In this document: in pieces, positions 40,059 to 57,525 of the stretch | Layout: every line of letters starts with the position of its first letter | Position numbering within the stretch: the first letter of the stretch is position 1 | Source of the DNA: an uncultured Desulfuromonas sp. | Lineage (GTDB): Bacteria; Desulfobacterota; Desulfuromonadia; Desulfuromonadales; Desulfuromonadaceae | Direction: 5' to 3' | Length of the DNA stretch: 64,000 nt | Assembly (NCBI RefSeq): GCF_963678835.1 | Contig: NZ_OY787469.1 | Coordinates: 1,922,001-1,986,000 of the forward strand | The notes under the pieces: generated by a model | Told to the model about the DNA's origin: nothing | Seen by the model: the letters and a program-made list of their open reading frames with translations, nothing else | Databases searched by the model: none | Position numbers and translations under genes: made by a program

Positions 40059-41725
40059 CAAGCATTACGCAAAAAATGATCGACAGCGGACTGTTCAGTG
40101 CCGCTGAGCTTAAAAAAGTGATGCCGGCAGCCCATCAGGGGGAGCCGGATTACCGTGTGGCGATCAAAACAGGCTTGGTTGCCGAGGATGTTTTTCTCAA
40201 CCTATCCGCTCAGGAGCTGTCTCTTGAGTTGCTTAGCGAGTTGCCGGAAGATTATGATCCTGCCATCTTTGAAAGCATCTCACTGCTTTTTATGCAGAAT
40301 CATTGTTTTTTTCCGCTGCAACGTGTCGATCAGGCCCTGCACATTGCTGTCAATGACCCCTTTGATTACCAGATTGTCAACGGGCTTCAGCCGCTGTTCC
40401 CCACGCATACGATCTATCTGCATCTGGCCCGCGAGAAGAAAATTCGCGATTGGATGCAGCGTTTTTTTGCCCCGACGGAAACTGAGGAGAGGAGTGACAG
40501 CGATGAAGATGAAGATGTCACTCTGACCTATGGCTATGATGACGCCGAACACCTCAAGGATATGGCGTCGGAGGCACCGGTCATCAAACTGGTCAATCAA
40601 CTGCTGACCAAAGCAGTTGAAGACGGTGCCAGTGATATCCATATCGAACCGTTTCAGGACCAGCTGCAGTTTCGTTATCGCATCGATGGTATACTGGTGA
40701 TTCAAAATCAGCCGTCGGTGGCGTTGCAGCAGGCCATTGTCTCACGGATCAAAATTATGGCCCGCATGGATATTGCCGAGCGGCGCCTGCCGCAGGATGG
40801 ACGTATCCGGACGAAGATTGCCGGTAAAGATATCGACATTCGTGTTTCCTGTCTGCCGACCATGTACGGCGAAAGTGTGGTCATGCGTATTCTCGATCGC
40901 AACCGCGTTGACCTCAACCTTGAAACATTGGGCTTTCCGGAAAAAGAGTGCGAGCGTTTTGAAGAGCTGATCACCCGTCCTTACGGGATTGTGCTGGTGA
41001 CCGGGCCGACCGGCAGCGGTAAAACGACGACGTTGTATGCGGCCCTGCAACAGATTAATACCCCGGACAAAAAAATTATTACCATCGAAGATCCGGTGGA
41101 ATATGAATTGACCGGGATTAATCAAGTTGAAGTCAACAGTAAAGCCGGCCTGACGTTTGCCGGCGGTTTGCGCTCCATTGTGCGTCAGGACCCGGATGTG
41201 ATTCTGATCGGTGAAATTCGCGACAAGGAAACCGCGGATATCGCCATTCAGTCGGCACTGACCGGACACCTGGTGTTTTCCACCCTGCATACCAACGATG
41301 CTGCCGGTGCTGTGACGCGCCTGGTCGAGCTTGGCGTTGAAGATTATCTGCTTTCGTCCGCCGTGATCGGTATTATGGCGCAACGTCTGGTGCGGGTATT
41401 GTGCCCCGAGTGTAAGGAAGCGTTCGTACCGGATGCCCAATTGTGTCGTAAATTGGAGCTGCCTTTTACGCCGACCACTGAAAAACCGATCTATCGCCCG
41501 GCCGGTTGTCGCCATTGCAATGATTCCGGTTACCGTGGCCGTGTCGCTATTTTTGAGCTGATGCCCGTCAGTGAAGGGATCCGTCACAGTATCCTCGATT
41601 CTAGTGCTTCAAGCCGTATTCGTGATGTCGCTCTCGAAGAAGGCATGCTGCTGCTGCGCCAGGACGGCTGGCGCAACGTTGAAGCTGGGGTCACCTCGAT
41701 TGCCGAAGTGCTTCGGGTCAGTTAA
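40055..41725 (+). CDS. gspE: Type II secretion ATPase GspE
   Basis: 556 residues. N-terminal MshEN-like part (about 1-130), then the ATPase: TGPTGSGKTTTLYAAL (Walker A, about 315), IITIEDPVEYELTGINQ (Asp box), RQDPDVILIGEIRDKETAD (Walker B), and GHLVFSTLHTNDAAGA (His box). A zinc-binding tetracysteine follows: CPEC and CRHC with 40-odd residues between. Cytoplasmic hexameric motor driving pseudopilus growth. First gene of a contiguous gsp operon running to 51272. The start codon is preceded by GGAAAGACGG. Confidence 0.95.
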   Translation: MTSITQKMIDSGLFSAAELKKVMPAAHQGEPDYRVAIKTGLVAEDVFLNLSAQELSLELLSELPEDYDPAIFESISLLFMQNHCFFPLQRVDQALHIAVNDPFDYQIVNGLQPLFPTHTIYLHLAREKKIRDWMQRFFAPTETEERSDSDEDEDVTLTYGYDDAEHLKDMASEAPVIKLVNQLLTKAVEDGASDIHIEPFQDQLQFRYRIDGILVIQNQPSVALQQAIVSRIKIMARMDIAERRLPQDGRIRTKIAGKDIDIRVSCLPTMYGESVVMRILDRNRVDLNLETLGFPEKECERFEELITRPYGIVLVTGPTGSGKTTTLYAALQQINTPDKKIITIEDPVEYELTGINQVEVNSKAGLTFAGGLRSIVRQDPDVILIGEIRDKETADIAIQSALTGHLVFSTLHTNDAAGAVTRLVELGVEDYLLSSAVIGIMAQRLVRVLCPECKEAFVPDAQLCRKLELPFTPTTEKPIYRPAGCRHCNDSGYRGRVAIFELMPVSEGIRHSILDSSASSRIRDVALEEGMLLLRQDGWRNVEAGVTSIAEVLRVS

Positions 41726-41751
41726 GCAGGCGTGAAAGAGAATCGTTGACC

Positions 41752-43032
41752 ATGGAAAATTGCATCTATGACTATAAGGCCATCTCACCGCAGGGTGATG
41801 TGGTCACCGGCCAGCTTCAGGCGAGTTCAGAGGCCGCCGCTGCAATGGTTCTGCAGCAACGGGGTTTGACGCCACTGCGTATCCAAGCCGATGGCAGTAC
41901 CGCTATACAAAAGAAGTCGCGAGTTAAAGTGAAAACGGCAAAGCCGGCAGCGAAAAGTCGCTCCAACGAACGCTTCTCGCTGCCGACGTTGCAACGTCGT
42001 GCCAGTACACGGGATCTGGTGATGTTTTCCCAGGATCTTGCCGCCTTGCTGAATGCCGGTGTCCCCTTGCCGCGCAGTTTGAAAATCATTGCCGAACTGG
42101 TGGAAAAAAAGAGTTTTGAAGCGGTGATTGTCGATTTGCATGAACAGATCAAGCAGGGCAGCACGTTTTGGGAAGCCCTTGAAAGCCACCCGAACTGTTT
42201 TTCACCGGTGTTTGTCCATATGGTGAAGGCGGGTGAAGCCGGAGGTGTTCTTGACCGGGTTCTGGAGCGGTTGGGTAGCTATCTTGACGGGGTTCAGGAA
42301 CTGAAGGAATACCTGCTTTCCGCCATGATGTATCCGCTGTTTCTTCTTGTTACGGCCATGGCTTCGGTGACGGTTCTGCTGACGGTTGTTGTGCCCAAGT
42401 TTTCCGTCATTTTCGGCGATATGGGCGTGGCGTTGCCGTTTTCGACCCGGGTCTTGCTCGGCATGGGAACTTTTCTCCAGAATTATTGGTGGGCGGTGCT
42501 TCTGGTGGTGATCGCCATGGTGGTGTCCATTCGGTTGTACTCCCGTTCTCAGACCGGGCGCAAACGGTTGGATCATTTGAAATTGTGTCTCCCCGGGCTC
42601 GGGTCTTTATTCAAGCGGATTGAAATTTCACGATTTTGCCGCACCTTTGGGACCTTGCTCACCAGTGGCATCCCTATCTTATCTTCCCTGCAGATGGTGC
42701 GGGGCGTGCTTGGCAATGTGGTGTTGAGCTCATCAGTGAAAAACGTCCACGCCGAGTTGAAACAGGGCGGGACTCTCTCTGAATCTCTGGCAGCGACCGG
42801 TTTTTTTCCGGCCATGGCCATCCAAATGATTGCCATCGGCGAGGAGACCGGACGCATGGATCAGATGCTGGTGCGCATAGCCGATATGTACGATCGGGAA
42901 ATTCGTGTCACCATTAAATCGTTTACCTCGCTTTTTGAGCCGTTGATTATCTTGTTGATGGGATTGGTTATCGGCGCTATGGTCATCTCCATGCTGCTGG
43001 CGATTTTCAGCGTCAACGATATGGGATTTTAA
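41752..43032 (+). CDS. gspF: Type II secretion inner-membrane platform protein GspF
   Basis: 426 residues from ATG 41752; the TTG six bases earlier is less likely. Two T2SSF repeats: LPTLQRRASTRDLVMFSQDL with LLNAGVPLPRSL in the first, and KRIEISRFCRTFGTLLTSGI with SLQMVRGVLGN in the second; FVHMVKAGEAGGVLDRVLER and MIAIGEETGRMDQMLV are the paired G-E-x-x-G blocks. Three membrane segments (about 200, 245 and 400). A basic linker KKSRVKVKTAKPAAKSRSNE separates the N-terminal part. It holds GspE, GspL and the pseudopilus base together. Confidence 0.95.
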   Translation: MENCIYDYKAISPQGDVVTGQLQASSEAAAAMVLQQRGLTPLRIQADGSTAIQKKSRVKVKTAKPAAKSRSNERFSLPTLQRRASTRDLVMFSQDLAALLNAGVPLPRSLKIIAELVEKKSFEAVIVDLHEQIKQGSTFWEALESHPNCFSPVFVHMVKAGEAGGVLDRVLERLGSYLDGVQELKEYLLSAMMYPLFLLVTAMASVTVLLTVVVPKFSVIFGDMGVALPFSTRVLLGMGTFLQNYWWAVLLVVIAMVVSIRLYSRSQTGRKRLDHLKLCLPGLGSLFKRIEISRFCRTFGTLLTSGIPILSSLQMVRGVLGNVVLSSSVKNVHAELKQGGTLSESLAATGFFPAMAIQMIAIGEETGRMDQMLVRIADMYDREIRVTIKSFTSLFEPLIILLMGLVIGAMVISMLLAIFSVNDMGF

Positions 43033-43118
43033 TGGATATTGATACATCAGCGGAATCTGTAACAGGCACGGATGCCTTGTGGCAAAAACCTCAACTTACT
43101 GTTTTACGGAGTGACGAC

Positions 43119-43547
43119 ATGGTACGACAACGTTGCACATCAGAGCAGGGTTTTACCCTGATTGAACTTTTGGTGGTTATGATTATTATCGGTCTGCTGG
43201 CTTCTCTGGTGGCGCCGAAAATGTTTAACAAAGTAGATAGCTCGAAGATCAAAACAGCCCGTGCTCAGATTGAATTGCTCGGAACCGCTCTAGATTCCTA
43301 TCGACTTGACAATTCGATGTATCCAACCACTCAGCAGGGACTGGCTGTCTTGCGCACCCGTCCCGATGCAGTTAAAACCTGGGATGGTCCCTATTTACCC
43401 AAGGATATCCCGCTTGACCCTTGGGGAAACAGGTATGTGTACAAAGCTCCGGGTGAGCATAATGAGTACGACCTGACTTCCTATGGTGCGGACGGCAAAG
43501 TGGGTGGCGAGGATGATGCCGCCGATATTAACAGCTGGGAAAACTGA
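43119..43547 (+). CDS. gspG: Major pseudopilin GspG
   Basis: 142 residues from ATG 43119, seven bases after GGAG; the same frame is open back to an ATG at 43032 that overlaps the gspF stop and would add 29 unconserved residues. Prepilin signal ends EQG before FTLIELLVVMIIIGLLASLV (cleavage by prepilin peptidase), followed by IKTARAQIELLGTALDSYRL, MYPTTQQGLAVLRTRP and the calcium-binding C-terminal part DPWGNRYVYKAPGEHNEYDL with SYGADGKVGGEDDAADI. All are GspG hallmarks. Forms the periplasmic pseudopilus shaft. Confidence 0.95.
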   Translation: MVRQRCTSEQGFTLIELLVVMIIIGLLASLVAPKMFNKVDSSKIKTARAQIELLGTALDSYRLDNSMYPTTQQGLAVLRTRPDAVKTWDGPYLPKDIPLDPWGNRYVYKAPGEHNEYDLTSYGADGKVGGEDDAADINSWEN

Positions 43548-43559
43548 TTCATTGCCCAT

Positions 43560-44051
43560 ATGGCTGTAAAGCGATCCCCCCATGGATTTACCCTCATCGA
43601 GCTGATCGTTGTCGTGTTGTTGATCAGCTTGAGTACTGCTCTGGTGATTGGCGTCAATTTTCGCCAAAGTGATAGCGTTCGTCTCAATGCCGCTGCGCGG
43701 GAGTTGCAGGCCTTCTTGCAACTTGCGCGCAGTCGGGCCATTTTTCTGAAGCAGAATAACCGCTGCTTTTATCAGTCATCGTCTCGTCAAATCTCAGCCG
43801 ATCTGGCGTCGCATCCTTTTGTTCTGCCGCAAAGTGTCGAATTGATAGTGAATACTGTTGAGGGGGGCGGCATGAATGATACTGAAGCCAAACAGCCATT
43901 TCTTCTCTATTATGCCGACGGCTCAGCTGCAGGGCCGAAGATCTCTCTGGTCAATGCCGGTAAACGGATTGCCGTCACTATTGACCCCCTGCTTGGCTTT
44001 GTGTCGATGGAACCCGCTTCATTGAAGGATGGGGCCGGGAGCGAGCAATGA
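43560..44051 (+). CDS. gspH: Minor pseudopilin GspH
   Basis: 163 residues. Prepilin N-terminus SPHG before FTLIELIVVVLLISLSTALV, then a GspH-type segment SVRLNAAARELQAFLQLARS RAIFLKQ and a beta-rich globular part. Position directly after gspG and overlap with gspI by ATGA support the assignment; GspH sequences are poorly conserved beyond the N-terminal helix. It is expected in the pseudopilus tip region. Confidence 0.8.
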   Translation: MAVKRSPHGFTLIELIVVVLLISLSTALVIGVNFRQSDSVRLNAAARELQAFLQLARSRAIFLKQNNRCFYQSSSRQISADLASHPFVLPQSVELIVNTVEGGGMNDTEAKQPFLLYYADGSAAGPKISLVNAGKRIAVTIDPLLGFVSMEPASLKDGAGSEQ

Positions 44052-44530
44052 ACAGGCCACGTCAGCCCCATCACGGGCAGGGGGGATTTTCCCTGATCGA
44101 AATGCTGGTGGCCGTTGTTCTGGTCGGAATGGTGCTGACGGTTTTTCTCCAGGTCTTTTCAGGCAGTATGCGTCTGTCACGCAAGAGCCGGGCAATGCTG
44201 GAGCACCACCTGCAGGCGGAAGCACTTTTTTCCCGTGTGTTGTTACAGGACGAGCGTGATGAATACTTCGCCTGGCAAGGGGAAAACGACATCGGCCGCT
44301 GGGAGATTGTTCTGCAGGAACTTGACACCGTTGTGCCCCTTGAGGAGCAGGATGAAATCACTCTGGCGCTGCCTTCAGAATTATTTATCGAAACCCTGAC
44401 CTTTTATCCTGCCGCGACAACGACCAGCGTTGTTTTGCAGCAAATCAGACGCTGGCCCCTGAATCATTTCAGTGAAGATTTTCGCCTGCAAAATGTGCTG
44501 CCTGCTGCCGTGCAAGAGACCATCGAATGA
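44048..44530 (+). CDS. gspI: Minor pseudopilin GspI
   Basis: 160 residues. Prepilin signal GQGG before FSLIEMLVAVVLVGMVLTVF, followed by MRLSRKSRAMLEHHLQAEAL and a short beta-rich domain. Assigned as GspI by position between gspH and gspJ and by the L-I-E-M/V-L-V-A start. Overlaps both neighbours by ATGA, so expression is coupled. It forms the tip complex with GspJ and GspK. Confidence 0.75.
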   Translation: MNRPRQPHHGQGGFSLIEMLVAVVLVGMVLTVFLQVFSGSMRLSRKSRAMLEHHLQAEALFSRVLLQDERDEYFAWQGENDIGRWEIVLQELDTVVPLEEQDEITLALPSELFIETLTFYPAATTTSVVLQQIRRWPLNHFSEDFRLQNVLPAAVQETIE

Positions 44531-45291
44531 TTATGCTGTTTCAACAGATATTACATCGTTGCCGGCAAAAACAGGGCTTTACCCTGATTGAACTGCTGAT
44601 CTCCATGACGATCATGGCGATGTTGATCACGGTGCTGTATCAGGCGTTTTCAACCGCCTCGCGGGTGTGGACAAAGCAGGAGTTGTTTGACGAAGCCCGT
44701 GCCCGACAGATGGCGACCAGTCGGCTGATCCGTTCGGACCTTCAACATTTGATCCCCTATCGTTATGTGGCCGAAAAAGGTGAATTTGATCTTTTTTCCA
44801 TGGCTCCCAACGTTCTTTTTTACGTGACCAGTGAAGGATTTGGTGCCCGTGGCCGGGACCACTTCGGTCTTTTTTTCACGTGCTGCTTTCTCCAGCCTGA
44901 GGATGATGGGACACTGACATTGCGGCTGTTTAAAACGGCCTATCCTGAAGCAGATTTTCTTGACGTATTTGAACAGTTTCTCGACCAGTCGTTACAGGAA
45001 CAACAAGCCTGGTCACCACCGCTTTTTCTGCGGGAGCACAGCGTCACGGTGATGTCTGAGCTGACCGAAGCCGGTTTCTTTGCTTTTTCTTTGCCCGTGT
45101 CCGGCGAGGATGCGGATTGGGATGAAGAAGAGCGTTTTTTTCAGCGACTGGCAGAACCGTTTGCATTGCATCGTGAGGTTCCGGAGGCAGTCTCTTTTAC
45201 CTATCAGTTTGATCAGGCCTGGCACGATCTGCAGGTGGTCCCCTTTTGTCAGCCGGATCCGACGGCCAGTGATGAGGAGACAGAGCAGTGA
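44527..45291 (+). CDS. gspJ: Minor pseudopilin GspJ
   Basis: 254 residues. Prepilin signal KQG before FTLIELLISMTIMAMLITVLY, then QAFSTASRVWTKQELFDEAR and a large beta-domain, longer than most minor pseudopilins, as expected for GspJ. It overlaps gspI and gspK by four bases each. The C-terminus is acidic (PDPTASDEETEQ). Part of the tip trimer GspIJK. Confidence 0.8.
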   Translation: MIMLFQQILHRCRQKQGFTLIELLISMTIMAMLITVLYQAFSTASRVWTKQELFDEARARQMATSRLIRSDLQHLIPYRYVAEKGEFDLFSMAPNVLFYVTSEGFGARGRDHFGLFFTCCFLQPEDDGTLTLRLFKTAYPEADFLDVFEQFLDQSLQEQQAWSPPLFLREHSVTVMSELTEAGFFAFSLPVSGEDADWDEEERFFQRLAEPFALHREVPEAVSFTYQFDQAWHDLQVVPFCQPDPTASDEETEQ

Positions 45292-46340
45292 TTGGCCCAT
45301 TCTGGTCAAAGCTTTTATCTGGCAGGATGTTGAACATGTCCCATTCTGTTGTACCAAGCCAGGGTCGACTTTGTGCCAGAACCACTAACAGTTTTTTAGG
45401 GGCATTAACGTCATCTTCAACTGGTAGTGCGCTGGTTGCCGTCCTGTGGATTTTACTGTTGTTGTCGGTGATGGCCTTGAGCTATGCTCGTACGACCAGG
45501 CTGCAGGCTCGTAGCGGGTTGACCCGAACCGAGATCTTGCGTGATCACTATCGTATGGCCGGTGCTTTTGAGCTGGCCCATCATGAGTATGACAAATATG
45601 TTCGTAACAAGGCATTGCTTGCCCGTCGCGAAGAGATCGAAGAGCTGACCGGAAAGCCTCTGGCGTTGTGGTATCCGCGTTATGCACCCTGGTTGATTGA
45701 TGTTGATGGTGCCTCTTTTGCGGTGCAGTTGTGTAACGAAGCCGGGCGGTTTGATGTCAGCCAGATGACCTCTGATCAGTGGGAACGTGTTCTTGTCGCC
45801 TGCGGCGTGGAGGATGAAGAGCTGCGTGGCGCCGTGAGGGATTCTGTTACCGATTGGAGTGATGGCGATGAAGCTCATCACCTGCAAGGGGTGGAAAGCG
45901 AGGCCTATCTGGAGAAAGATCCACCTTATCGAAGCAAGAATCATGTCATTCAGTCGATGGCGGAGCTTCTTTTGGTCCAGGGCGTCAGTCGCGACCTTTA
46001 TTATGGCAGTGCCGAGCATCCCGGTCTGATTGATTTCCTCTCCGTTTATGGTCATGCCGGCAAGCTCGATATTAACTGTGCCGCCCCGCAGACGCTGGCT
46101 TTGGCCCAGAGTCTTGACGAGGAGGAGCGCCAGGCCGTTTTGGCCTATAGACAGCAGCAACGGATCCGCAATATGGCTGAATTGGCCGAGCTGGTCGGCA
46201 TTGACGGATACAGCCAGCTGCAGCGTGATTTTGAGGTTGTCGAAACCCCTGATTATGTTACTATCTCCGTTTCGCACTGGCCTGTTTCGACCGCAAAGCC
46301 TCCGGCGTTGTGGTCTCATCGGACATTCAAGGTTGAGTAA
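45288..46340 (+). CDS. gspK: Minor pseudopilin GspK
   Basis: 350 residues if the GTG at 45288 (overlapping the gspJ stop) is used; that leaves an unusually long leader of about 45 residues before the hydrophobic segment GSALVAVLWILLLLSVMALS. An ATG at 45327 or 45336 would give a shorter leader. Large helical domain with NEAGRFDVSQM, VTDWSDGDEAHHLQG and YGHAGKLDINCAAPQTL matches GspK, including the N-x-x-G-x-x-D/N start of the helix-hairpin region. Caps the pseudopilus. Confidence 0.88.
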   Translation: MIGPFWSKLLSGRMLNMSHSVVPSQGRLCARTTNSFLGALTSSSTGSALVAVLWILLLLSVMALSYARTTRLQARSGLTRTEILRDHYRMAGAFELAHHEYDKYVRNKALLARREEIEELTGKPLALWYPRYAPWLIDVDGASFAVQLCNEAGRFDVSQMTSDQWERVLVACGVEDEELRGAVRDSVTDWSDGDEAHHLQGVESEAYLEKDPPYRSKNHVIQSMAELLLVQGVSRDLYYGSAEHPGLIDFLSVYGHAGKLDINCAAPQTLALAQSLDEEERQAVLAYRQQQRIRNMAELAELVGIDGYSQLQRDFEVVETPDYVTISVSHWPVSTAKPPALWSHRTFKVE

Positions 46341-47581
46341 TGGCTTTTTTACCGAAAACACATGTTCTTTTGTGTTGTGAACACCGCCTGTTGCTGTATC
46401 AGGTGCAGGGCCAGAAAATTGTTTTTTCCCAGGAATGGTCTCTGGGCGATGAGGGAGGCTTTGCCGCCGCACTGCTGGAAGTCGGTCAGGTTTCGGCGCA
46501 AAAAAGCGATGAGGCTCTCATTGTCGGCTTTCCCCTCAATGCGTTTAATTTCGTTCATTTTACGTTGCCGAATGCCGCCCAGGAGAATCTGGACGAAGCG
46601 GTCGGTTATGAGCTGATGCGCCATGTGGCGTATGATCTGTCTCAAGCCTGGTATGATTATCAGCTTTCGGAACAGGGCGGCAGTCTGCGGATTGACGTGA
46701 TGTTGGCCCTGCGCTTGCCGCTTCAACAACAGCTAGCGGCGATTTCCGCCGCTGGTTTAACGGTGACCGGGATGGCTCCGACACTGCTTGTCGCGGCATG
46801 GCTCACCGGTCACAACGGCCTTTTTGTTCAGGGCGGCGACAAAACACTGGAATGTTTGACCTGTCGCTCCGGCCACGTTGAGTTGGCTGTTTCGCGAGAC
46901 TGTGCCAATACATCCGACAGTCAGCTTTTGCAGCCTCTTCCGCAGGAGCTATCGGCAGATGATGAACTCTGTGTGCTGGACGAAAATGCTTTGACGGAAA
47001 AAATCAGTCAACAGATGGATCGAACGTTGCGGGTCTTTGCGCTGGGGGTCGGTGATTCCGTCTCGTCACTCAAGGCGTTGCCGCATCGTATCGATCTGGT
47101 TCCGCCGCATGTGCTGCGACAGCGACGGTTACGTCTTCGGCTGCTGATTGGTGCCGGTCTGCTTTTTGCGGTGAGTCTTCTGGTGTATCCTGCGGCGGAA
47201 TGGCTGGGGAAACAAAGTGCCCTGGCCGGTCTTGACAGTCAGATTAGCGAGATGCGTCATCAGGTGGAAGCGCTGTCGACACTGCGAGAACAGAATCAGG
47301 AGATGAAGGATCGTGTGGAACGCCTTGCCGCTTATGTGCAGGGACGGACCCGGCCCCTTGATCTGCTCAAGGAAGTGACGGATGTCCTGACGGCGGAAAC
47401 CTGGTTAAGCGCTTTTGAAATCCATGAACAACAATTGATCCTGCGCGGAACCACTGCTGACGCCACTGCCGTTCTCGAGGCTCTGGCAACATCGCCGTTG
47501 CTGCAGGATGTCAAGTTTGATTCTCCCGTGGTGAAAAAAGGGACGTTGGAAACATTTTCCATCGTCGCAACACTCAAGTAA
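46340..47581 (+). CDS. gspL: Type II secretion protein GspL
   Basis: 413 residues. An actin-like cytoplasmic domain (about 1-250, with FVHFTLPNAAQENLDEAVGY) is followed by one membrane segment (about 268-285, LLIGAGLLFAVSLLVYPAAE), a periplasmic coiled coil and a small ferredoxin-like domain (about 340-413). This is the GspL plan. It links GspE in the cytoplasm with GspM and the pseudopilus. Overlaps gspK by one base. Confidence 0.85.
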   Translation: MAFLPKTHVLLCCEHRLLLYQVQGQKIVFSQEWSLGDEGGFAAALLEVGQVSAQKSDEALIVGFPLNAFNFVHFTLPNAAQENLDEAVGYELMRHVAYDLSQAWYDYQLSEQGGSLRIDVMLALRLPLQQQLAAISAAGLTVTGMAPTLLVAAWLTGHNGLFVQGGDKTLECLTCRSGHVELAVSRDCANTSDSQLLQPLPQELSADDELCVLDENALTEKISQQMDRTLRVFALGVGDSVSSLKALPHRIDLVPPHVLRQRRLRLRLLIGAGLLFAVSLLVYPAAEWLGKQSALAGLDSQISEMRHQVEALSTLREQNQEMKDRVERLAAYVQGRTRPLDLLKEVTDVLTAETWLSAFEIHEQQLILRGTTADATAVLEALATSPLLQDVKFDSPVVKKGTLETFSIVATLK

Positions 47582-47597
47582 TTTTGCTGAAACAGGT

Positions 47598-48173
47598 ATG
47601 ATGAAATTTACGCGGCCAACATCGTTAACATCACTTCAACCGAATCAGCTGTTGATTCCGGTGGCTATCTTTCTATTTATTCTGGTCGCCGGTCGTTGGG
47701 CCATGGATCAATGGCACAGCCATCTTGCCGATCAGGATCAGATGCTTGAGCTGCGCCTGATGCAACGGGATAAATACCAGCGCATTATCGAGAACAGCAC
47801 GGCTTATGAAAAGCTGAATACGTCCCTGGCGAACATGCAGGAAACGGTTGATCAAAAACGTCTGTTCAAGGCTGCATCTGAAGCCTTGTCCCAAGCACGC
47901 TTTCAGAATTTGATCAAAGATTTGGCAACAAAGAATCATATCGATATCCGTTCCACCAGGGCAGTCTCTTTAAAGGCGCAGGAGCAGGTGCAGCGGGTCG
48001 GCTTGCGGATTGACGCCAAGGGGGAGATCGGTGCCATTCGGGACTTTTTGGTCGATTTGCGAAATGACCCCCATTATATTTTTATTTCCTCTCTGGAGGT
48101 TCGCACCATCAATCCAAGGGAACAACGTTATTACTACCTTACGGCTGAGCTTGTGGCCATACAGGATCTGTAA
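47598..48173 (+). CDS. gspM: Type II secretion protein GspM (PilO-like)
   Basis: 191 residues starting ATGATG at 47598. One membrane segment near the N-terminus (LLIPVAIFLFILVAGRWAM, about 19-37), a coiled coil (LMQRDKYQRIIENSTAYEKL) and a ferredoxin-like periplasmic domain. GspM proteins are defined by this plan and by standing behind gspL; sequence alone could equally be called PilO-like. It stabilises GspL. Confidence 0.75.
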   Translation: MMKFTRPTSLTSLQPNQLLIPVAIFLFILVAGRWAMDQWHSHLADQDQMLELRLMQRDKYQRIIENSTAYEKLNTSLANMQETVDQKRLFKAASEALSQARFQNLIKDLATKNHIDIRSTRAVSLKAQEQVQRVGLRIDAKGEIGAIRDFLVDLRNDPHYIFISSLEVRTINPREQRYYYLTAELVAIQDL

Positions 48174-48176
48174 CCG

Positions 48177-48974
48177 GTGAAGAAACTGTCTTTACGTACC
48201 GTAGTGCTTGTTGTTTTGTTGTTGGGGGTTGTCCTCAATGTTGCCTTGGCTTTGCGTGTTTATCAACGTAACCGTCATATTGACAGCTCCACGACTTCGC
48301 GTTCTCAACAAAGCTCAGAGGCTTCCGGCTCACTGGTTAAGGATCTCAATGCCTTACTGAGTCCGCCTACTTTTCGTCATACTGTCTATGAGGGCATTGA
48401 GAATCGTAACCTGTTTTCTCAGACCCGTACTGCTTGGAAACCGCCAATTGATGAAGATGAAGAACCGGAGGAAACATTCAGCAAAGCCCGTCGAACAGAC
48501 GTCGTGCTCTATGGAACCTATCTGTCCCAGGGGCGTCTCAGGGCACTGGTGGAGTTTCCCCATTTGGAAGAAAAGTTACGTCGCCAGCGTCTTTTTGCCG
48601 GTGAACAGGTGACCAGTAACGCTAAAAAAAAGAAATCCTATACGATTGTCAGTGTTAAGGACGACAGTATTACGGTAAAAGATCAAAATGCCGTGGTGTT
48701 TCGTGTCGGCCTCTACGATGCGAAAAAGAAACCACATCGTTCAGCCGCTGTGGCGAAAACATCGATCACGGTTGAAAAAGACGATAGGAACGAGGGTGGT
48801 TCCTCCGTTGTTGCCGGAAAATCGCGTGCAGAATCTGCCGCAGAAGTGGTGCATCAACGCCAGGCGAAAGCGCGTCAGGAACAGATGATTAAATCTGGTG
48901 AATTGCGTAAAGTAACGACCCCCTTCGGAACGGCCTATGTCAAAAGTCCTGCGACAAAAAAAGAAGAAAAATAA
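48177..48974 (+). CDS. gspC: GspC-like inner-membrane protein with homology region, no PDZ domain
   Basis: 265 residues from GTG 48177. One membrane segment (about 8-26), then a GspC homology region (about 75-180): YEGIENRNLFSQ, TDVVLYGTYLSQGRLRALVE, QRLFAGEQV, YTIVSVKDDSITVKDQNAVV, the pattern L-x-G-T...A-x-V/I-x...I-x-x-V-x-x-D-x-V. The C-terminal part is basic and repeatedly charged instead of a PDZ domain. Together with its place next to the secretin gene this supports a GspC role, linking the platform with GspD. Confidence 0.7.
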   Translation: MKKLSLRTVVLVVLLLGVVLNVALALRVYQRNRHIDSSTTSRSQQSSEASGSLVKDLNALLSPPTFRHTVYEGIENRNLFSQTRTAWKPPIDEDEEPEETFSKARRTDVVLYGTYLSQGRLRALVEFPHLEEKLRRQRLFAGEQVTSNAKKKKSYTIVSVKDDSITVKDQNAVVFRVGLYDAKKKPHRSAAVAKTSITVEKDDRNEGGSSVVAGKSRAESAAEVVHQRQAKARQEQMIKSGELRKVTTPFGTAYVKSPATKKEEK

Positions 48975-48977
48975 CGT

Positions 48978-51272
48978 ATGAATTCGTTCGAAAAGGTCGA
49001 TGTGTCCATGAATGATTTGATCCCCCGCTTGTTGCACAACACGCTGACAGTTGTGTGTTGTACCCTGATTTTGACATTGCTCTCATCCTGTTCGTTGTTG
49101 AAACCGACGGCACGTGATCTGGCCTCGGCTCCGTTGTTGGAGATCGAAAAACCGCAGACTAAAAAAGTTCGGGACGCTGCAATTTCAGGAGAAGATCAAG
49201 GACGAGCCGAAAATGAGTCTCTGGAGAAGTTGCAGCAGGATATGAAAACTCTGGAGGAGCGTGAAGAGGCATTCAATTACAAACTGACCACAATGATGCG
49301 AAGCAACGCCGTGCCGACATCGTTTGAGCAATCGCCACAGGGTTCCTCACTAAAGCGCGTCACTGGTCGTCAGGAGATCGCCTGCCATTTCGACAATGCC
49401 GATTTACTCGAAGTGGTTCGCTTGTTTATGCAGGAATACCTTAACGCGGATTTTTTGATCTATCCTGGTGTTGAAGGATCCGTAACCATGGAGGTTGAGC
49501 GCTCCATGACGATGGATGAAATCCGTCACCTTCTCGATGGGGTGCTGCAGATCAATCGTATGACGATGTTCTATCAGGATGATCGCTGGCATATTATGCC
49601 TTTGGAAGAGGCCCCCATCGCCCTTGGTCAGGAGCGCCTGTTACTGCCTGGAGCCGATCATGTTGTTCGTGGACAGATCATTCAAGCCTACACTTTGCGT
49701 TATATCACGGCTTCTGAACTGGTGAAAGTAATCGCTCCTTATCTGACCAAAGGGGCCCAAGTTTATGCCCACGAGTCCAGCGGTGTGTTGCTGGTGTGTG
49801 ATTATCCCCATGTGCAGGCCAAAATTGACAAGTTGATTCAGCTCTTTGATGTTGGTCCGTTTGCCGGTACCCATATGAAGGTATTCTGGCCCCAATATGT
49901 GCTTGCCGATGAACTGGTTAAGGAGCTGGATGCTCTGGCAGAAAGTGTTTCCTTGGCCGCTGGAACTGACACAAGTGCCAACAGTAGCCTGTCTTTTGTC
50001 GCTATGCCGCGATTGAATCTTCTTCTGGCTATGTCGCGAGACTCTGAATCGCTGGAGTTTGTCGACCTGTGGGTCAACGAGCTTGATCGCGAGATTCCAA
50101 CCGTGCTTCAACAGAACCAGGAAGAGGGTATTTATATTTACTCCGTTAAAAACGGTATGGCCACAGATATTGTCACTGTTCTTGAGGGATTGTTTGGTGA
50201 GGGAAATACCACGGCAGCAGCTGACTCAAAAGGTAAAGACGAAAACCTGCCAAGCGGTGTGCAACTCACCCGCTTGAGCAGTGGTATTGATAAGAATAAA
50301 ACCACGCAAAAAACTGCTGGCCCAGGTGCCGTCAGTGGCTCGCTCAGTGGACCGGTGACCTTTGTTGTTGATGAAATCACCAATGCTATTCTTGTCCGCT
50401 CAAGCGGAACTGATTATCGCAAGGTACTGCCGGTAATCGAACGCCTTGACACCTACCCGAAGCAAGCTCTTATTGAAGTCACCATCGCCGAAATCCAACT
50501 GGATGAAAGCAATTCACTTGGCGTTGAGTGGCAGTATTTTGCCAAGAATGTCGGAGGCAGTCCTAATGCACAAAGCGGACTCAGTGTTGACTCTGGACTA
50601 GGTGTGGTCTCAGGTGGTAGCAGCCTGATCAGTTCAGGCTTGAGTTACGTGGTGGAAAATACCGATCGCTTTAAGGCGGCCTTGCGCGCTTATTCTGGGC
50701 AAAATCGCGTTAATGTTCTTTCTGCCCCACATATACTGGCTTCAGACAACCAGGAAGCCAAAATCGATATTGGTGATGAGGTGCCTATTGTTACCTCTGA
50801 ATATCGGACAACAGAATCCTCTTCAACTGCCACGACCGTTGATAAAACCATCCAGTATCGTAATGTCGGCGTCATTTTGTCTGTAACTCCCCACATCAGT
50901 GAAAATGGCACCGTGCGTATGGAAATCTCGCAAGAGGTCAGTGAACTGTCACAAAAAACCGTCGAAGGTGTTGACTCACCGGTGTTCTCAAAACGCTCTG
51001 CCACAACTCAGTTGGCGGTCAATGACGGTCAGACCATTGTTATCGCCGGATTAATGCAGCAAACCGCCAGCAAGTCGTCTTCGGGGGTTCCCTTTCTGGC
51101 TCGTTTACCGTTGATCCGTTATCTTGTTGGCTATGATGGCCAGGATTTTGCGAGTACCGAGCTGATGATTTTTATCACGCCGCATGTTGTTTTAACCGGT
51201 GAAGACTCTGATTTTATCAGTCGTTCGTTTCTGAAACGTCTTGAAACCCTTCGTTCTGATATGGAACATTGA
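48978..51272 (+). CDS. gspD: Type II secretion secretin GspD (lipoprotein)
   Basis: 764 residues. A lipobox LSSC (Cys38; Cys28 if ATG 49011, which gives a more usual signal length, is the true start) predicts an outer-membrane lipoprotein. N0 domain (IACHFDNADLLEVVRLFM), three N1-type domains (TASELVKVIAPYLTKG, VLADELVKELDALAES, GMATDIVTVLEGLFGEG) and the secretin core: VNVLSAPHILASDNQEAKI, GDEVPIVTS, YRNVGVILSVTPHISENG, DGQTIVIAGLM and FLARLPLIRYLVG, then TELMIFITPHVV. It forms the outer-membrane gate. Last gene of the gsp operon. Confidence 0.95.
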   Translation: MNSFEKVDVSMNDLIPRLLHNTLTVVCCTLILTLLSSCSLLKPTARDLASAPLLEIEKPQTKKVRDAAISGEDQGRAENESLEKLQQDMKTLEEREEAFNYKLTTMMRSNAVPTSFEQSPQGSSLKRVTGRQEIACHFDNADLLEVVRLFMQEYLNADFLIYPGVEGSVTMEVERSMTMDEIRHLLDGVLQINRMTMFYQDDRWHIMPLEEAPIALGQERLLLPGADHVVRGQIIQAYTLRYITASELVKVIAPYLTKGAQVYAHESSGVLLVCDYPHVQAKIDKLIQLFDVGPFAGTHMKVFWPQYVLADELVKELDALAESVSLAAGTDTSANSSLSFVAMPRLNLLLAMSRDSESLEFVDLWVNELDREIPTVLQQNQEEGIYIYSVKNGMATDIVTVLEGLFGEGNTTAAADSKGKDENLPSGVQLTRLSSGIDKNKTTQKTAGPGAVSGSLSGPVTFVVDEITNAILVRSSGTDYRKVLPVIERLDTYPKQALIEVTIAEIQLDESNSLGVEWQYFAKNVGGSPNAQSGLSVDSGLGVVSGGSSLISSGLSYVVENTDRFKAALRAYSGQNRVNVLSAPHILASDNQEAKIDIGDEVPIVTSEYRTTESSSTATTVDKTIQYRNVGVILSVTPHISENGTVRMEISQEVSELSQKTVEGVDSPVFSKRSATTQLAVNDGQTIVIAGLMQQTASKSSSGVPFLARLPLIRYLVGYDGQDFASTELMIFITPHVVLTGEDSDFISRSFLKRLETLRSDMEH

Positions 51273-51334: not shown

Positions 51335-52696
51335 ATGTTGATCCGTTTTTTTCTCGTCTGCTGCATTGTTTTGTCGACGTTCAGTTTTGCTTTGGCTGGG
51401 GATACCGACAAGGGTGGCGACACGCTGCGCCTTGTTCTTCTTGGCGGACAAAAAGACCAGATTCGTCCTTGTGGCTGACACAGTAAACAGGCGGGCGGTC
51501 TTGCCCGTCAGGCAGCAATTATGCAGCAGTTGGTCGCCGACTATGGCAGTGACCGGACACTCCGTCTCAATGCCGGAAATATGTTCAAGCGAGATGGTGA
51601 ACTGGAAAAAAAACGCGCCGAGGTGATTCTCACTGCCTATGCGGCGATGGCCTATGATGTTTATGCCATTGGGCCGTTTGACGCGACTTTCGGTTTGTCA
51701 TCACTGGAAACAATGGCTGCTGCCGTTGGGGTGACGCCGATCTGCTCAAATCTTATCGAAGGAGCCGCGCAAAGCATTGCCCCTTACCAACTGGTGGAAA
51801 AAGGCGGGCAGAGGATTCTGGTGACCAGCCTGGTTGACCCTTGGTTGAGCGATGTGGTTAAGAAGAAAAAAGGCATCTCTCTTCCTGTGTGTCCAGTGGA
51901 AGGAGTGCTGTCGCCCCTGTTTGAATCGGTGCCTCACGATGTGAGTATTGTCGTAGTCCAGACGGCAACAACCCATCTCGAAGACCTGTTGTCTGGCATT
52001 GGCGTTAAACCCGACCTCGTTGTCCTCGGCTATCAGGAAGGGGTGATCCCGCCAAAGACGTTGGACAACGGTTTGACGTATGTTGCGAATAATCTCAGTG
52101 GCAAAGTGCTGGCCTCCGTCGATTTTGTTGCCGGGGAAAAACCTTTAGATTTGGACAACTGGCAACACGTCACCTTGTCCATGGCTGACGTGGTTCCTGA
52201 GCCGAAGGTCGATCAACTGATTACGTCCCAGGAGCAATGGGAAAAGGACTTTCACCGCCGCAAAAGAAAAAGCAACAAAATTAATGTCGGTCGTGGCCCG
52301 TCCAACTTTTATCTCGGCGACGGCTGGTGTGTGCGCTGTCACCCGGAAATCAGCCGGTCGTGGAAACAAAGTCGTCATGCCCATGCCCTGGCAACGTTGC
52401 AGAATAAAGGTCGTGCTGATGATCCGCGCTGTTTGCCCTGTCATGTGACCGGGATGAAGCAGAACAATGAAGAGAGTCTGGTGGAAGAACAACGTATGGG
52501 GGGCGGGTTTACCTCATTAGAAATGACCCCCCACCTGGGCAATGTTCAGTGTGAGGCCTGCCATGGCCCCGGTAAGCTCCACGCTCGCAATCCCAAGCTG
52601 AATCCTCTGAGGAAGGGGGATGATACAGTCTGTCAACGCTGCCACACCGAAGACACCAGTCCAGGGTTTGTTTATCGTGAGAACGAGGTTCATTAA
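51335..52696 (+). CDS. Selenocysteine-containing tetraheme cytochrome c with UshA-like N-terminal domain
   Basis: 453 residues if UGA at 51476-51478 is read as selenocysteine (Sec48). Signal peptide about 1-22 (FSFALA then GD). The motif around the UGA, PCG-U-HSKQAGGLARQA, equals the P-C-G-C...G-G-L-A-R-R-A block of UshA/5'-nucleotidase-like proteins fused to cytochromes, with U for the second Cys. Reading stays open in frame to 52696. The C-terminal part has four c-type heme sites: CVRCH (332-336), CLPCH (366-370), CEACH (406-410) and CQRCH (433-437). Periplasmic or surface electron-transfer protein; reaction unknown. Without recoding, only a 47-residue peptide or a headless cytochrome from ATG 51521 would result. 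Confidence 0.88.
51476..51509 (+). promoter_or_regulatory. SECIS element downstream of the in-frame UGA
   Basis: From the UGA: UGACAC, then a hairpin with G51490-C51509, GCGGGC (51491-51496), loop GGTCTT (51497-51502) and GCCCGT (51503-51508), seven pairs including one G-U. The apical GGUCU sits at positions 22-26 counted from the U of UGA, the same place as in the E. coli fdhF SECIS as I recall it, where GGUCU is contacted by SelB. UGACAC at the start is also shared. Confidence 0.85.
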
Positions 52697-53176: not shown

Positions 53177-53224
53177 ATGGGTAGCCGGTCTCAAAAAAAA
53201 ACGTTACAAGGAGATGAAACATGA
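53177..53224 (+). CDS. Possible 15-residue leader peptide
   Basis: ATG 53177, nine bases after the strong ribosome site GAGGAGGG (53160-53167), opens MGSRSQKKTLQGDET and stops at TGA that overlaps the next start as ATGA. The downstream gene has its own AAGGAG (53208-53213). It could couple or pace translation of the abundant protein. Short enough to be chance. Confidence 0.3.
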   Translation: MGSRSQKKTLQGDET

Positions 53225-54891
53225 AATTTAGAATGATTGGCTTGTTGGCCCTGATGGCCACACTGGCTGCGGGTACCGCATTTGCGGCAAACCGCGTCGA
53301 GGTAAAAGTTACCTCGGAACCCATCGCTCAGTACGCAACGTGCGAAAAGGCTGGTGGTTACACCATGGAGTGGGATTCTGGTTCTACGATTCTTGGTGGT
53401 GATCAGCTCACTATTGACCTGCCGCTGAATGTGACCCTGTGCAACGATATCGACATCATGCTACCTTGGACTGATGCCGCTGGTGGTGTTCCTGGTGTTG
53501 ATGCTGGTGACGACAACGGTGTGCCTCGGAATACACTTGCAGCATACGCTGCTGGTACTGCTGGTGCAGCTTTCAGCGGTGCACCTGTAGACGAAGCTGA
53601 GGACGCAGTATACTTCTACATTTCTGGTGACGCTGGTACTCAGCGTGTGACCATTAATGTTGTTGCAGTTGGTGGTGTTACTGGTATCACCGTCGGCGGT
53701 AACGCTGATGACGTCTTTACTCTTGAGTTTTTTGACCAGAACACTGATGGTATCTTTGTTGATGACGATGATGCTGATGCAGTCTATAACAATGCTGGCG
53801 TTATTGCTGACAATACCCGCTGCATCAACGTTTCTGCTTACAGCAATGAAACTGTTAAAGACAGCCTTGACTCCGCGGCTGACAAATACACCTTCATTCC
53901 TTCTGACCCTCAGGTTGCTCATATCGTAGCTGCTACCGGTTACAGCCTGTATGAGTGCGACAAAAATTCCGTTGGTCGCATCATTATGGGTGAAGCTGAG
54001 TACCAAGGTTCCGAGTCTTGCGTTTCTTTTGATTTTGAAGATGGTGATGGTTACTGCGCCAACACGCACTCCGCCAATAATGCTCTGATTATCAAAGCGA
54101 CTGCAGATATGCCGATCACGGATTACAACGTTGAGTTGGAAATTTTGACTGATGGTGTTTACTGGTCGGATGAGACGGTTGATATGGCCAGCTACGAGGA
54201 TGCAGCTAATGCGTGTGCAGGTACTAATTCTGTTGGTGATGATCTTGGCCTGACTCCGACGTATACTGATGCCGCAGGTGAGACTGAATCAGCTGCTGCT
54301 CCGCGTGCCAATGGTACTGAAGATTGCGACGTTGCTGACGGTAGCAAAGCGGTTACATTGTATCTTACTGGTACCTCTCCTGTTGGTGCAGATGCCCGTT
54401 ACCTCGAAATTGACATGCCTGCATTCAACTACGATCTCGATGAAATTACTGCCGGTGATGAAGTTGAAGTTCGCGTTAAACTGAGCAAAGCACCTTGTGG
54501 CGAAATTATCGAAGACACCTTTGTTGTCGGTACCTTCGGCTGCATCGAAGCTGGCGTCAGCTATGACGTAACCTTCCCTTACTTCACTCAAATCACTGGT
54601 GATGCATTCTGGGATGGTATGGCGATCGTTAACCTGAGCGGTACTGCAGGTACTGCTGAGCTGACCATCTACGAAGCTGACGGTGACGTTTTCACTGCTA
54701 GCTATGATGTAGAGGCTCACGGCATGGTCGTTTTCAACACTTCTGACCTGCTCAGCACTGCTACTGGTAGCGGTACTCTGGGTGATGCTCGCTTCTACGT
54801 AGAAGTTGAAGCAGACTTCAACGTTGACGGCTTCGCTATGATGGCGAACTCCGCAACTGGCGAGTCCATGGGCTATCTGCCCCGCAAATAA
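53221..54891 (+). CDS. Abundant secreted acidic protein, S-layer-like
   Basis: 556 residues, signal peptide about 1-22 (ending GTAFA-A). The mature part is very acidic, rich in Asp, Gly, Thr and Val, nearly lacks Lys/Arg clusters, and has scattered Cys pairs. Segments such as DQNTDGIFVDDDDADAV suggest calcium binding. Codon use is narrow (GCT, GGT, GTT, CTG strongly favoured), as in highly expressed genes. The C-terminal domain (about 450-556, FPYFTQITGDAFWDGMAIVN ... GFAMMANSATGESMGYLP) recurs in the next gene. No family name recognised; cell-surface layer or extracellular structural protein is the best guess, and type II secretion is a plausible route. Strong promoters precede it and a strong terminator follows. 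Confidence 0.7.
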   Translation: MKFRMIGLLALMATLAAGTAFAANRVEVKVTSEPIAQYATCEKAGGYTMEWDSGSTILGGDQLTIDLPLNVTLCNDIDIMLPWTDAAGGVPGVDAGDDNGVPRNTLAAYAAGTAGAAFSGAPVDEAEDAVYFYISGDAGTQRVTINVVAVGGVTGITVGGNADDVFTLEFFDQNTDGIFVDDDDADAVYNNAGVIADNTRCINVSAYSNETVKDSLDSAADKYTFIPSDPQVAHIVAATGYSLYECDKNSVGRIIMGEAEYQGSESCVSFDFEDGDGYCANTHSANNALIIKATADMPITDYNVELEILTDGVYWSDETVDMASYEDAANACAGTNSVGDDLGLTPTYTDAAGETESAAAPRANGTEDCDVADGSKAVTLYLTGTSPVGADARYLEIDMPAFNYDLDEITAGDEVEVRVKLSKAPCGEIIEDTFVVGTFGCIEAGVSYDVTFPYFTQITGDAFWDGMAIVNLSGTAGTAELTIYEADGDVFTASYDVEAHGMVVFNTSDLLSTATGSGTLGDARFYVEVEADFNVDGFAMMANSATGESMGYLPRK

Positions 54892-55053: not shown

Positions 55054-57525
55054 ATGATGATTCACACGATGAAGCACATGTTCAGTGCAGGTGTTTTAAT
55101 GTCGCTGATGTTTTTTTCTTCGGCTCATGCTGAAACCGGTGTTGCCACTCGCACGGCTTGGAGCGGCTATTGGTGGCCTTATAATTATGGTGGTTTGGCG
55201 ACCGGTTATGATTATCGTGGCAACCCTGCTCCGCTTGAAAAATACGAACTTCTTGTCGATGGCTACCTGAGCGGTCGGCTTGTCGATCCGTATCTCGACC
55301 GTTATTATGATGCCGAGGCTCCGGGATGGCATGGCCTGTGTTACGCCTGGGCGGCTGCCAGCAGTTCTGAATCCGAGCCCTCCCGCCCGTCTGTGCATGA
55401 CAATATCCTGTTTCGTGTCGGTGACAAAAAAGGGTTGTATACCCTGGCACACACCAATGACGTCAATCTCACCGCGGAAGGGGATAAGCCGCAAATCTTC
55501 CACCAATGGCTGACGGAAAAAATTGGCCGGCAGAAACTGATTTTTTATGCCGATCTGGATGCCTCCGAAGAGATTTGGTCTTATCCCATTTACGCGTATA
55601 CGATGGAGGTGGGTGAGCGGATTGGAGATCAACAGGATGTCGATGTTACGATCACCTATGCTGGAGATTTTGTCACGCGCGACTTTATCGGCACTGATAT
55701 CTATCATCAACGGTATACCTATACGCTCTATTATAACGAAGCCAATGAACTTATTGATGGTGAATGGACCGGCGATAGTATTACGGATCATCCCCAGCGG
55801 ATGACTCTGGTGCAGCAACAGCGAAGTAAGATAGATGGTGTTGACATGACATTGTTGCGATCTATTGGCAGTGCCATCGACGATGAACTGGAGGACCAAA
55901 ACGAAGTACCATTATCACCGGGAACCTGGCAATTGATCAGTCTGGATGACGATCTGTACACGCTTTCGGGGCGTGATGGCGATGTCTTGAAGATTGATGC
56001 GATTAAATTACCCGGACCGGAAAATCCATTAATTTTTACAGTGATGGATAGTAGAAATACAGTTCTCGACAGCTTTACCTTGGATGACGAGAAAGAATCC
56101 ATTTCATGGACAATCAGCGGTGATGTTACTGATACTTATCATCTGCTCGTTGAACAGGAGAACTATTCAGAAGCTGATTTTTATCAGCTTGATATCAATA
56201 TTTTTGGCGCGGAGAACCAGCAGTTGCTGCCGTATATTCCGGCGAACGGTTGGTGGAACGGCCTGGCTTTAACCAATATGACGTCCGTTGACGAGGATAA
56301 ACTTTGTCTGACCAGCCTTGACGAAAACGGACGTGCGCTCGAGAGTCACATCGCCCAGCAGGCTCTTGAGGGACAGCGAAAAATCGTTACGTTATTTGAT
56401 AACCTGCCGTCTCGACTCCATGAACAATCTACGCGTCAGTCGTTGTTGATTTATGCCTCGGACGCGGTCGCCACGGTCAATCTATTTGGCGGTGTTGATA
56501 CGGGACTGGGGGGATTCTTTTCTTCGGACATCGCTCAGTCCGATCATCTGATTTTGCCGTTGTCGCGTGCAGATTGGCGAGAAACAGTGTGGGGCGGTGT
56601 CCTGAATCGTGGGGATGAGGATCAAACGCTAACTTTCTCATTTTATTCAGCTATGGGCGAACTCGTCGCGACTGAACGTGTTGAGTTGGACGCCGGTGCC
56701 AAAGTGATGCTTGGTTCGCTTTCCAGTTGGAGTAAACGGGCGGCAGGCGGCTGGATTGATGTGACCGCGGACAATAACGAGGCCTCGCTTGAGGCTTATC
56801 AGATCTGGCGCTCTATTTCCAACTTGGCCCGTGTTGAAGGTTTGCGTGGTTTGACAGAGTCACGAGAACAATGGTTGCCTCATGTTGAAGATAGTGGTTT
56901 CTGGTCAACAAAGTTGACGTTGGTTAATCCGCAAAGCGTCTCGATTAATATTGCTTTGACGCTGTGTGGTCAAGAAGGTGTCTTAGGGGCTGCTTCAGCT
57001 GCTGTTTTGACGTTGTCTCCGCATGAAAAGCGTACCATGACGCTTACCGAGGTTTTTCCAACTGGGGCGGCGGTATTACCTTACTGCGGAGTCAAACTTG
57101 CCTCCGCTCAACAATTCTCCGGTTATGTTTCTTATGATTCCGCTGAAGACTTGGCTTGTTTGCCTCTGATTCAATCCCACCAGCTCTCGTCGCAATTATG
57201 TTTGCCGCACCTTGCTGAAGGATATGATTGGTGGACGGGGGTTGTTTTGTTTAACCCCCAAGCCCTGCCGGTAAATGTCACTGTGACACCGGTGGATATG
57301 GAGGGCGATATCCGAGCTGACCTGCAGCAGATGATCGTATTGTCCAGCGGGGAAAAACAGGCTTTCACCTTAGGGCAGTATTGGACCGGAGACGAGATTT
57401 CCCAGTTTTCCCATGTTGTATGTAAAAGTGATGGCGGTGAATCAATAGGGGGCATGTTTCTGTTCGGGCGTTTTGGTGTGCAGCAAGTTACTGGGAGCCT
57501 GTTGTCGGTCGTTCCTGCAGAATGA
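55054..57525 (+). CDS. Secreted protein with transglutaminase-elicitor-like domain and four C-terminal repeats
   Basis: 823 residues, signal peptide about 1-26 (SSAHA-E). Residues about 30-240 resemble transglutaminase-elicitor (M81/TGase_elicitor) proteins: WSGYWWP, APLEKYELLVDG, WHGLCYAWAAASSSESEP (Cys96 as likely nucleophile), FHQWLTEKIG (His150) and IWSYPIYAYTM. Residues about 385-823 hold four copies of a 105-110 residue beta module opening with L-P-x-x...W-x-G-x-x-L/V-x-N-x (YIPANGWWNGLALTN, LSRADWRETVWGGVLN, HVEDSGFWSTKLTLVN, HLAEGYDWWTGVVLFN). The same module ends the neighbouring secreted protein. Probably an extracellular cysteine peptidase or protein-crosslinking enzyme attached through the modules; enzyme type is inferred. 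Confidence 0.65.
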   Translation: MMIHTMKHMFSAGVLMSLMFFSSAHAETGVATRTAWSGYWWPYNYGGLATGYDYRGNPAPLEKYELLVDGYLSGRLVDPYLDRYYDAEAPGWHGLCYAWAAASSSESEPSRPSVHDNILFRVGDKKGLYTLAHTNDVNLTAEGDKPQIFHQWLTEKIGRQKLIFYADLDASEEIWSYPIYAYTMEVGERIGDQQDVDVTITYAGDFVTRDFIGTDIYHQRYTYTLYYNEANELIDGEWTGDSITDHPQRMTLVQQQRSKIDGVDMTLLRSIGSAIDDELEDQNEVPLSPGTWQLISLDDDLYTLSGRDGDVLKIDAIKLPGPENPLIFTVMDSRNTVLDSFTLDDEKESISWTISGDVTDTYHLLVEQENYSEADFYQLDINIFGAENQQLLPYIPANGWWNGLALTNMTSVDEDKLCLTSLDENGRALESHIAQQALEGQRKIVTLFDNLPSRLHEQSTRQSLLIYASDAVATVNLFGGVDTGLGGFFSSDIAQSDHLILPLSRADWRETVWGGVLNRGDEDQTLTFSFYSAMGELVATERVELDAGAKVMLGSLSSWSKRAAGGWIDVTADNNEASLEAYQIWRSISNLARVEGLRGLTESREQWLPHVEDSGFWSTKLTLVNPQSVSINIALTLCGQEGVLGAASAAVLTLSPHEKRTMTLTEVFPTGAAVLPYCGVKLASAQQFSGYVSYDSAEDLACLPLIQSHQLSSQLCLPHLAEGYDWWTGVVLFNPQALPVNVTVTPVDMEGDIRADLQQMIVLSSGEKQAFTLGQYWTGDEISQFSHVVCKSDGGESIGGMFLFGRFGVQQVTGSLLSVVPAE

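Follow-up and report, generated by a model that had tools for sequence, protein, structure and literature searches.

A predicted selenocysteine-containing fusion of a nucleotidase-like domain and a tetraheme cytochrome, encoded in a type II secretion module of an uncultured Desulfuromonas sp.

A 64,000-nucleotide stretch of an uncultured Desulfuromonas sp. genome (assembly GCF_963678835.1, contig NZ_OY787469.1, positions 1,922,001 to 1,986,000 of the forward strand; hereafter the window) contains a 453-codon frame at 51335..52696 that holds a single in-frame UGA. Is this codon a stop or selenocysteine (Sec), and what would the resulting protein do? All window features described here lie on the plus strand. 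The UGA (codon 48, 51476..51478) follows a signal peptide and precedes four CXXCH heme sites, and 405 codons remain from there to a TAA. A sequence-only reading of the locus had described this arrangement, and each part of it was found in the frame. The predicted product of 453 aa comprises the signal peptide, a 5'-nucleotidase-like domain and a tetraheme c554-like domain, and the translation and the alignment of relatives place a Cys46-Gly47-Sec48 motif (P-C-G-U with Pro45) at 51470..51478. The signal peptide (residues 1-21, 51335..51397) was judged by eye to be probably of the Sec (export) type and to end approximately between ALA and GD; the structure model has a helix at residues 2-19. By all sequence tests made, this is a real selenoprotein gene. 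The best explanation overall, to which we give a little better than even confidence, is that it encodes a Sec-decoded, exported, heme-wired thiol/disulfide redox protein.

The sequence-only reading had proposed recoding of the UGA and named a search for the sel genes and an alignment of homologues as checks. In the genome we found tRNA-Sec (71 bits; anticodon TCA by ARAGORN), selA (611 bits), selB (365 bits) and selD (369 bits), all above their curated cut-offs, with selA, selB and selD clustered at C1:1497890-1502190. selB was present in 9 of the 10 genomes of the genus. The selD gene (L019, C1:1497890-1498807) carries one in-frame TGA itself, so that in this genome selenophosphate synthetase is probably a selenoprotein as well.

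Relatives were collected by a search of genome contigs (80 loci kept out of 208 confirmed), by whole-genome searches (matches in 3 of the 136 genomes of the order) and from a phylum sample, where 115 of 395 genomes matched at E <= 1e-10, many via the heme domain only. The alignment comprised 108 proteins after five identical copies and two fragments with fewer than three heme sites had been left out. At column 48, where 106 relatives have a residue, 82 carried TGA, 23 carried Cys (14 TGC and 9 TGT) and one carried Arg, while the Cys two residues earlier (Cys46) was invariant (106/106). At least four changes between Sec and Cys were counted on a quick tree with long-branch warnings, which was used solely for this count. 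TGA was retained in a 73%-identical copy from another species of the genus (L102). Over residues 29-47, before the TGA, this copy and the window protein were identical at 16 of 19 positions, with 3 replacement and 5 silent codon differences, and conservation was lower in the signal peptide, where 12 of 27 residues were replaced.

A true stop or a pseudogene mutation would leave a 391-aa protein starting at ATG 51521, the first in-frame restart after the UGA, and a plain table-11 listing of open reading frames (ORFs) does give this frame. Such a product would keep four heme sites and lack the signal peptide, and c-type heme attachment is periplasmic. The TGA and Cys codons of the relatives, the amino-acid conservation upstream of the UGA and a conserved hairpin downstream of it also speak against this explanation, which we consider extremely improbable. 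A premature stop or pseudogene was rejected on the Sec/Cys column and the conservation before the UGA.

The hairpin, a candidate selenocysteine insertion sequence (SECIS) at 51490..51509, was identified by folding, relatives and covariation. Its GGUCU (51497-51501) occupies positions 22-26 when the U of UGA is counted as 1, and the GGTCT of E. coli fdhF was counted at the same 22-26. The predicted fold had an energy of -14.2 kcal/mol (z -2.2), and 6 of 200 shuffles were equally stable. The hairpin was conserved in its GGUCU form: GGTCT stood at the loop position in 43 of the 82 Sec-type genes vs 1 of the 23 Cys-type genes (Fisher 2e-5; the rows are related, so this is not a strict probability), a comparison partly affected by a shift, as the loop is often one residue longer in Cys-type genes. 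Unaffected by the shift is the comparison with Gly-Leu pairs elsewhere in the same 105 genes, where the GGTCT spelling was used in 52 of 298 (Fisher 8.5e-10 vs the loop position, again over related rows and not as a strict probability). For a seven-pair stem in 34 of the 43 GGTCT sequences, pairing was 84.9% vs 70.9% in shuffled sets; the covariation score was 0.356 vs 0.151 (0 of 500 shuffles as high) and exceeded that of all six slid versions. Of the five covariation measures, three exceeded the shuffles; "pairs with a change on both sides" (488/500 shuffles as high) and "further pair types" (260/500) did not. An Rfam scan of the whole window gave no family above threshold. Many Sec-type genes without the GGUCU loop (L033, L040, L065 and others, several of them from Krumholzibacteriia) tend to form a GGCCCGGAGGGCC-like hairpin further downstream, which is possibly another SECIS form.

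Because the sel genes are present, the relatives carry Sec or Cys at the column and the GGUCU hairpin covaries, UGA 51476 is almost certainly read as Sec. Judged from the sequence, the product is very probably exported via its signal peptide and loaded with four c-type hemes in the periplasm. The sequence-only reading had placed the UGA where relatives carry the second Cys of P-C-G-C and the GGUCU at the fdhF spot; the relatives and the coordinates agreed with both, and its proposal of Sec recoding is well supported by the sel genes and the Sec/Cys alternation.

The N-terminal domain (approximately residues 29-312, 51419..52270) has the 5'-nucleotidase/UshA/SoxB fold without the metal ligands, as seen by profile match, fold comparison and alignment to nucleotidase chains. 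The family profile matched 5'-nucleotidases at E 1.5e-36, and the structure model showed the 5'-nucleotidase/UshA fold. The nucleotidase metal motifs, which we take to be DxH, GD, GNHE and GHxH, correspond in the alignment to GGQK, GN, GPFD and GYQE, so that no metal-binding motif was left in the window protein. In the tally of 108 rows, the N and H of GNHE were not conserved across the family, and GD retained its Asp, and GH its His, in 55 rows each. The C-G-U is located just after the lost first motif. Since the metal site is lost and the Cys-Gly-Sec pair stands beside the lost first motif, the domain is probably a redox module and not a hydrolase, with the fold kept and the two-metal site gone. 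A still metal-dependent phosphoesterase or nucleotidase with an added redox switch would fit the clear 5'-nucleotidase homology and the GD Asp and GH His retained by about half of the relatives; the four altered motifs and the unconserved N and H of GNHE make it very unlikely. An active nucleotidase was rejected on the lost motifs, and membership of the SoxB thiosulfohydrolases on a TIGR04486 score of 20.1 bits vs a cut-off of 550.

The C-terminal tetraheme cytochrome c554-like domain (52310..52669) was recognised by a Pfam match (PF13435, cytochrome c554 family, 44.7 bits, above the gathering cut-off of 20.8) and by the family profile. Its CXXCH sites lie at residues 332-336 (52328..52342), 366-370 (52430..52444), 406-410 (52550..52564) and 433-437 (52631..52645). 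The first three were found in 108/108 aligned rows and the fourth in 107/108, with one gap, the fragments with fewer than three sites having been left out beforehand. The fusion of an UshA-like domain with a tetraheme cytochrome, as first read from the sequence, is therefore well supported.

What would such a protein do? The lost metal site, the invariant Cys near the Sec/Cys position and the fused hemes give a structural reason for a redox role, and the two-electron redox chemistry suggested earlier from the sequence is plausible. We tentatively propose, with less than even confidence, that the C-G-U exchanges electrons with protein thiols and that the hemes serve as a relay, in a cytochrome-coupled counterpart of DsbB/VKOR. 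The Cys-Gly-Sec pair would cycle between thiol/selenol and selenenylsulfide, taking electrons from protein thiols or giving electrons to them, and these electrons would pass singly through the tetraheme domain. In this genome its likely clients would be Cys-containing proteins that the type II secretion system of the upstream genes handles, together with the products of two downstream genes; for Cys-type relatives, a neighbouring DsbA would take this part.

The neighbours of the relatives bear on this proposal. They were taken mechanically as the longest ORFs (one upstream and two downstream), some of them surely spurious, and ORFs of at least 3000 bases and loci identical to another were left out. 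Among 61 neighbours of the Cys-type loci (n = 21), 13 had a DSBA domain; two more were AhpC/TSA-like and one was ResB-like. A cluster of 14 DsbA-like genes, all with CXXC, was found directly downstream of the UshA-cytochrome gene in every case. The 13 DSBA neighbours are presumably the Cys-type members of this cluster, and the 14th lies beside the Arg-type gene. That gene (L055:527-1612) has CGT (Arg, PCGR) at the Sec/Cys column, and its DsbA-like neighbour is still there. The genes followed by DsbA (L057, L060, L084 and 11 further loci) are of the PCGC type apart from one of the PCGR type, and lie mostly on Nitrospirae, Nitrospinaceae and Deltaproteobacteria contigs. The 133 neighbours of the Sec-type loci (n = 52) included four each of MauE, DoxX and Fer4_5.

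These neighbours also bear on an alternative in which the protein is a Sec-containing enzyme of respiration or detoxification that acts on a small compound of sulfur, selenium or a metal(loid). In such an enzyme, the C-G-U would bind the substrate in the old nucleotidase pocket, the hemes would link it to the periplasmic cytochrome network, and the secretion module would be a chance or indirect neighbour. SoxB and the nucleotidases have metal motifs in common, and these are lost in the window protein. No recurring sulfur- or metalloid-pathway gene was seen among the listed neighbour families (25 per list). No specific support was found for the metal(loid) reaction proposed from the sequence alone. 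We regard this enzyme as a somewhat unlikely alternative, only slightly less likely than one with protein thiols as substrate.

The genomic setting of the gene itself is a type II secretion module. Upstream lie gspE, the secretion ATPase (40055..41725; TIGR02533, 633.4 bits, cut-off 630.25), and gspD, the secretin (48978..51272; TIGR02517, 378.8 bits, cut-off 351.35), which ends 62 nt before the selenoprotein gene. The genes between them (41746..48974) probably complete the type II operon, and we take them, from their order, to be F, the pseudopilins and L/M/C-like genes; one ORF there (46340-47581) had a weak PilM-like match below its cut-off. Downstream, a 556-aa protein with a signal-peptide-like start (53221..54891) was assigned to the module by gene order and counterparts, and showed no convincing family match. 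It is followed by an 823-aa protein (55054..57525) with TGase_elicitor (PF16683, 59.3 bits) and DUF5719 matches. No homology between the selenoprotein and the TGase_elicitor protein was seen (E 0.5).

In a second genome of the genus (G034), the gene order was the same over the 13 genes covered by its region, including gspD, the UshA-cytochrome gene, the 556-aa protein and the TGase_elicitor protein. The TGase_elicitor protein of G034 carries GLCYAWA, which resembles a catalytic-Cys motif. Elsewhere in the phylum, distant genomes had the order gspD, a Cys-rich protein, a small lipoprotein-like protein, the TGase_elicitor protein, the Sec-type UshA-cytochrome and a protein of about 240 aa; gspD was confirmed in the three fetched loci reaching that far (L136, L138, L142). 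The distant counterparts of the 556-aa protein have 26, 26 and 30 Cys, and a further counterpart is a 174-aa fragment with 11. A TGase_elicitor neighbour was found in 7 of the 20 regions L134-L153, plus L025 and L026. Several families of the phylum have the TGase_elicitor protein beside the selenoprotein and also, where these can be seen, beside type II secretion genes. Of the 10 genomes of the genus, three (G000, G033, G034) had all of the selenoprotein, this gspD and the TGase_elicitor protein, and the other seven had none of them (Fisher 0.008 for any two). In the sample of 395 phylum genomes, 16 had the UshA-cytochrome at E <= 1e-50, a limit chosen after the data had been seen, 15 had the TGase_elicitor protein and 11 had both (Fisher 7e-15); one TGase_elicitor match in the repeat part only (G385) had been excluded before this count.

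The conserved order in G034 and the rearranged module of the distant genomes, as well as the DsbA-, ResB- and AhpC/TSA-like neighbours of Cys-type loci, would also suit a module-specific assembly factor, whose C-G-U would protect, reduce or isomerise the Cys of type II cargo or of CXXCH sites, with the hemes only supplying electrons. No type II secretion genes were found among the listed neighbour families of the wider family, and we consider this role unlikely.

Several findings weigh against the thiol/disulfide proposal and the module in which we place it. No DSBA was found beside Sec-type loci in the 25 of 62 Pfam families listed, although one could be hidden among the rest, so that the strongest pointer to thiols is confined to the Cys-type branch. 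Attaching heme to CXXCH sites would be an equally possible job for the DsbA-, AhpC/TSA- and ResB-like neighbours. The G034 counterpart of the 556-aa protein has 10 Cys vs 26-30 in the distant ones. There was no TGase_elicitor neighbour in 13 of the 20 fetched regions, in some owing to contig ends. G033 has the three genes on separate contigs (C133, C127, C329) and lacks the selenoprotein gene after gspD, and its copies of the selenoprotein, gspD and the TGase_elicitor protein share only 32, 56 and 33% identity with those of the window. A single family (f65) accounts for 9 of the 11 phylum genomes with both genes, which leaves few independent events.

The Sec reading is not new, as the window protein is a divergent variant of a predicted family in print since 2008. 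An UshA-like CxU family was reported in the GOS survey of that year with 76 Sec sequences (COG0737), and UshA-like, SelD and FdhA were named there as the major families lacking a conserved Cys-based redox motif (PMC2398784). The UshA-like selenoprotein family is also listed in two reviews (PMC9312934, PMC13188914), and the accessible parts of these three sources give no function for it. In open-access PMC, NF041198 is mentioned in a 2026 review. Searches there found no paper joining type II secretion, selenoprotein and multiheme, and none joining UshA-like and cytochrome c554; transglutaminase elicitor was absent among the matches listed on type II secretion and cytochrome. A search on disulfide bond formation, multiheme cytochrome and DsbA listed a single paper, on cytochrome c biogenesis System I. 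What is new is the metal-ligand loss with the C-G-U after the lost first motif, the recurrent secretion module, and a DsbA gene directly downstream at 13 of the 21 Cys-type loci.

These gene neighbours (DsbA, type II secretion, the TGase_elicitor protein) provide a first testable idea of the family's function. If the thiol-to-heme idea is true, it would reveal a route by which anaerobes link protein thiols to the cytochrome network. More speculatively, and we hold this as doubtful, the UshA-like C-G-U/C-G-C tetraheme proteins may form a new class of periplasmic disulfide redox enzymes, in which a metal-free hydrolase fold carries a selenenylsulfide centre wired to hemes. In anaerobes, oxidative protein folding, or a reductive quality control of type II cargo, would then depend on cytochromes and not on quinones; the partner would be DsbA in lineages of the Cys type, and in the lineage studied here a dedicated secretion module would take its place.

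Among known systems, the closest model is NF041198 (UshA_like_PCGU), which shares the P-C-G-[UC] motif and a 5'-nucleotidase-like domain followed by a four-heme domain. The window protein matched it in two stretches with 205.7 bits, below the equivalog cut-off of 275. Of ten relatives, three passed (L124, 450; L130, 337; L033, 287) and seven scored 185-266; L102, L103, L105, L107 and L111 were below the cut-off at 185-261 bits. Compared with members above the cut-off, the metal ligands of the window protein are more fully lost; a further difference is that its gene is part of a module with type II secretion genes. NF049981 (UshA-like (seleno)protein family 2), a model of 262 positions with a related N-terminal domain, matched residues 42-119 with 36.1 bits, below its cut-off of 140; the accessible part of PMC13188914 lists it with the motif CxxU. 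UshA, the 5'-nucleotidases and SoxB differ from the window protein by their metal ligands and by the absence of the C-G-U and the heme domain. Cytochrome c554 (1bvb) has the four CXXCH in common with it and is matched by the family profile at E 5e-21, but the heme domain here is fused behind a nucleotidase-like domain. DsbB and VKOR are membrane-bound, quinone-linked disulfide-bond oxidases. They are unrelated to the window protein, which would be soluble, heme-linked and Sec-based, and the likeness is a functional analogy only, in the proposed shared task of electron transfer between protein thiols and a carrier.
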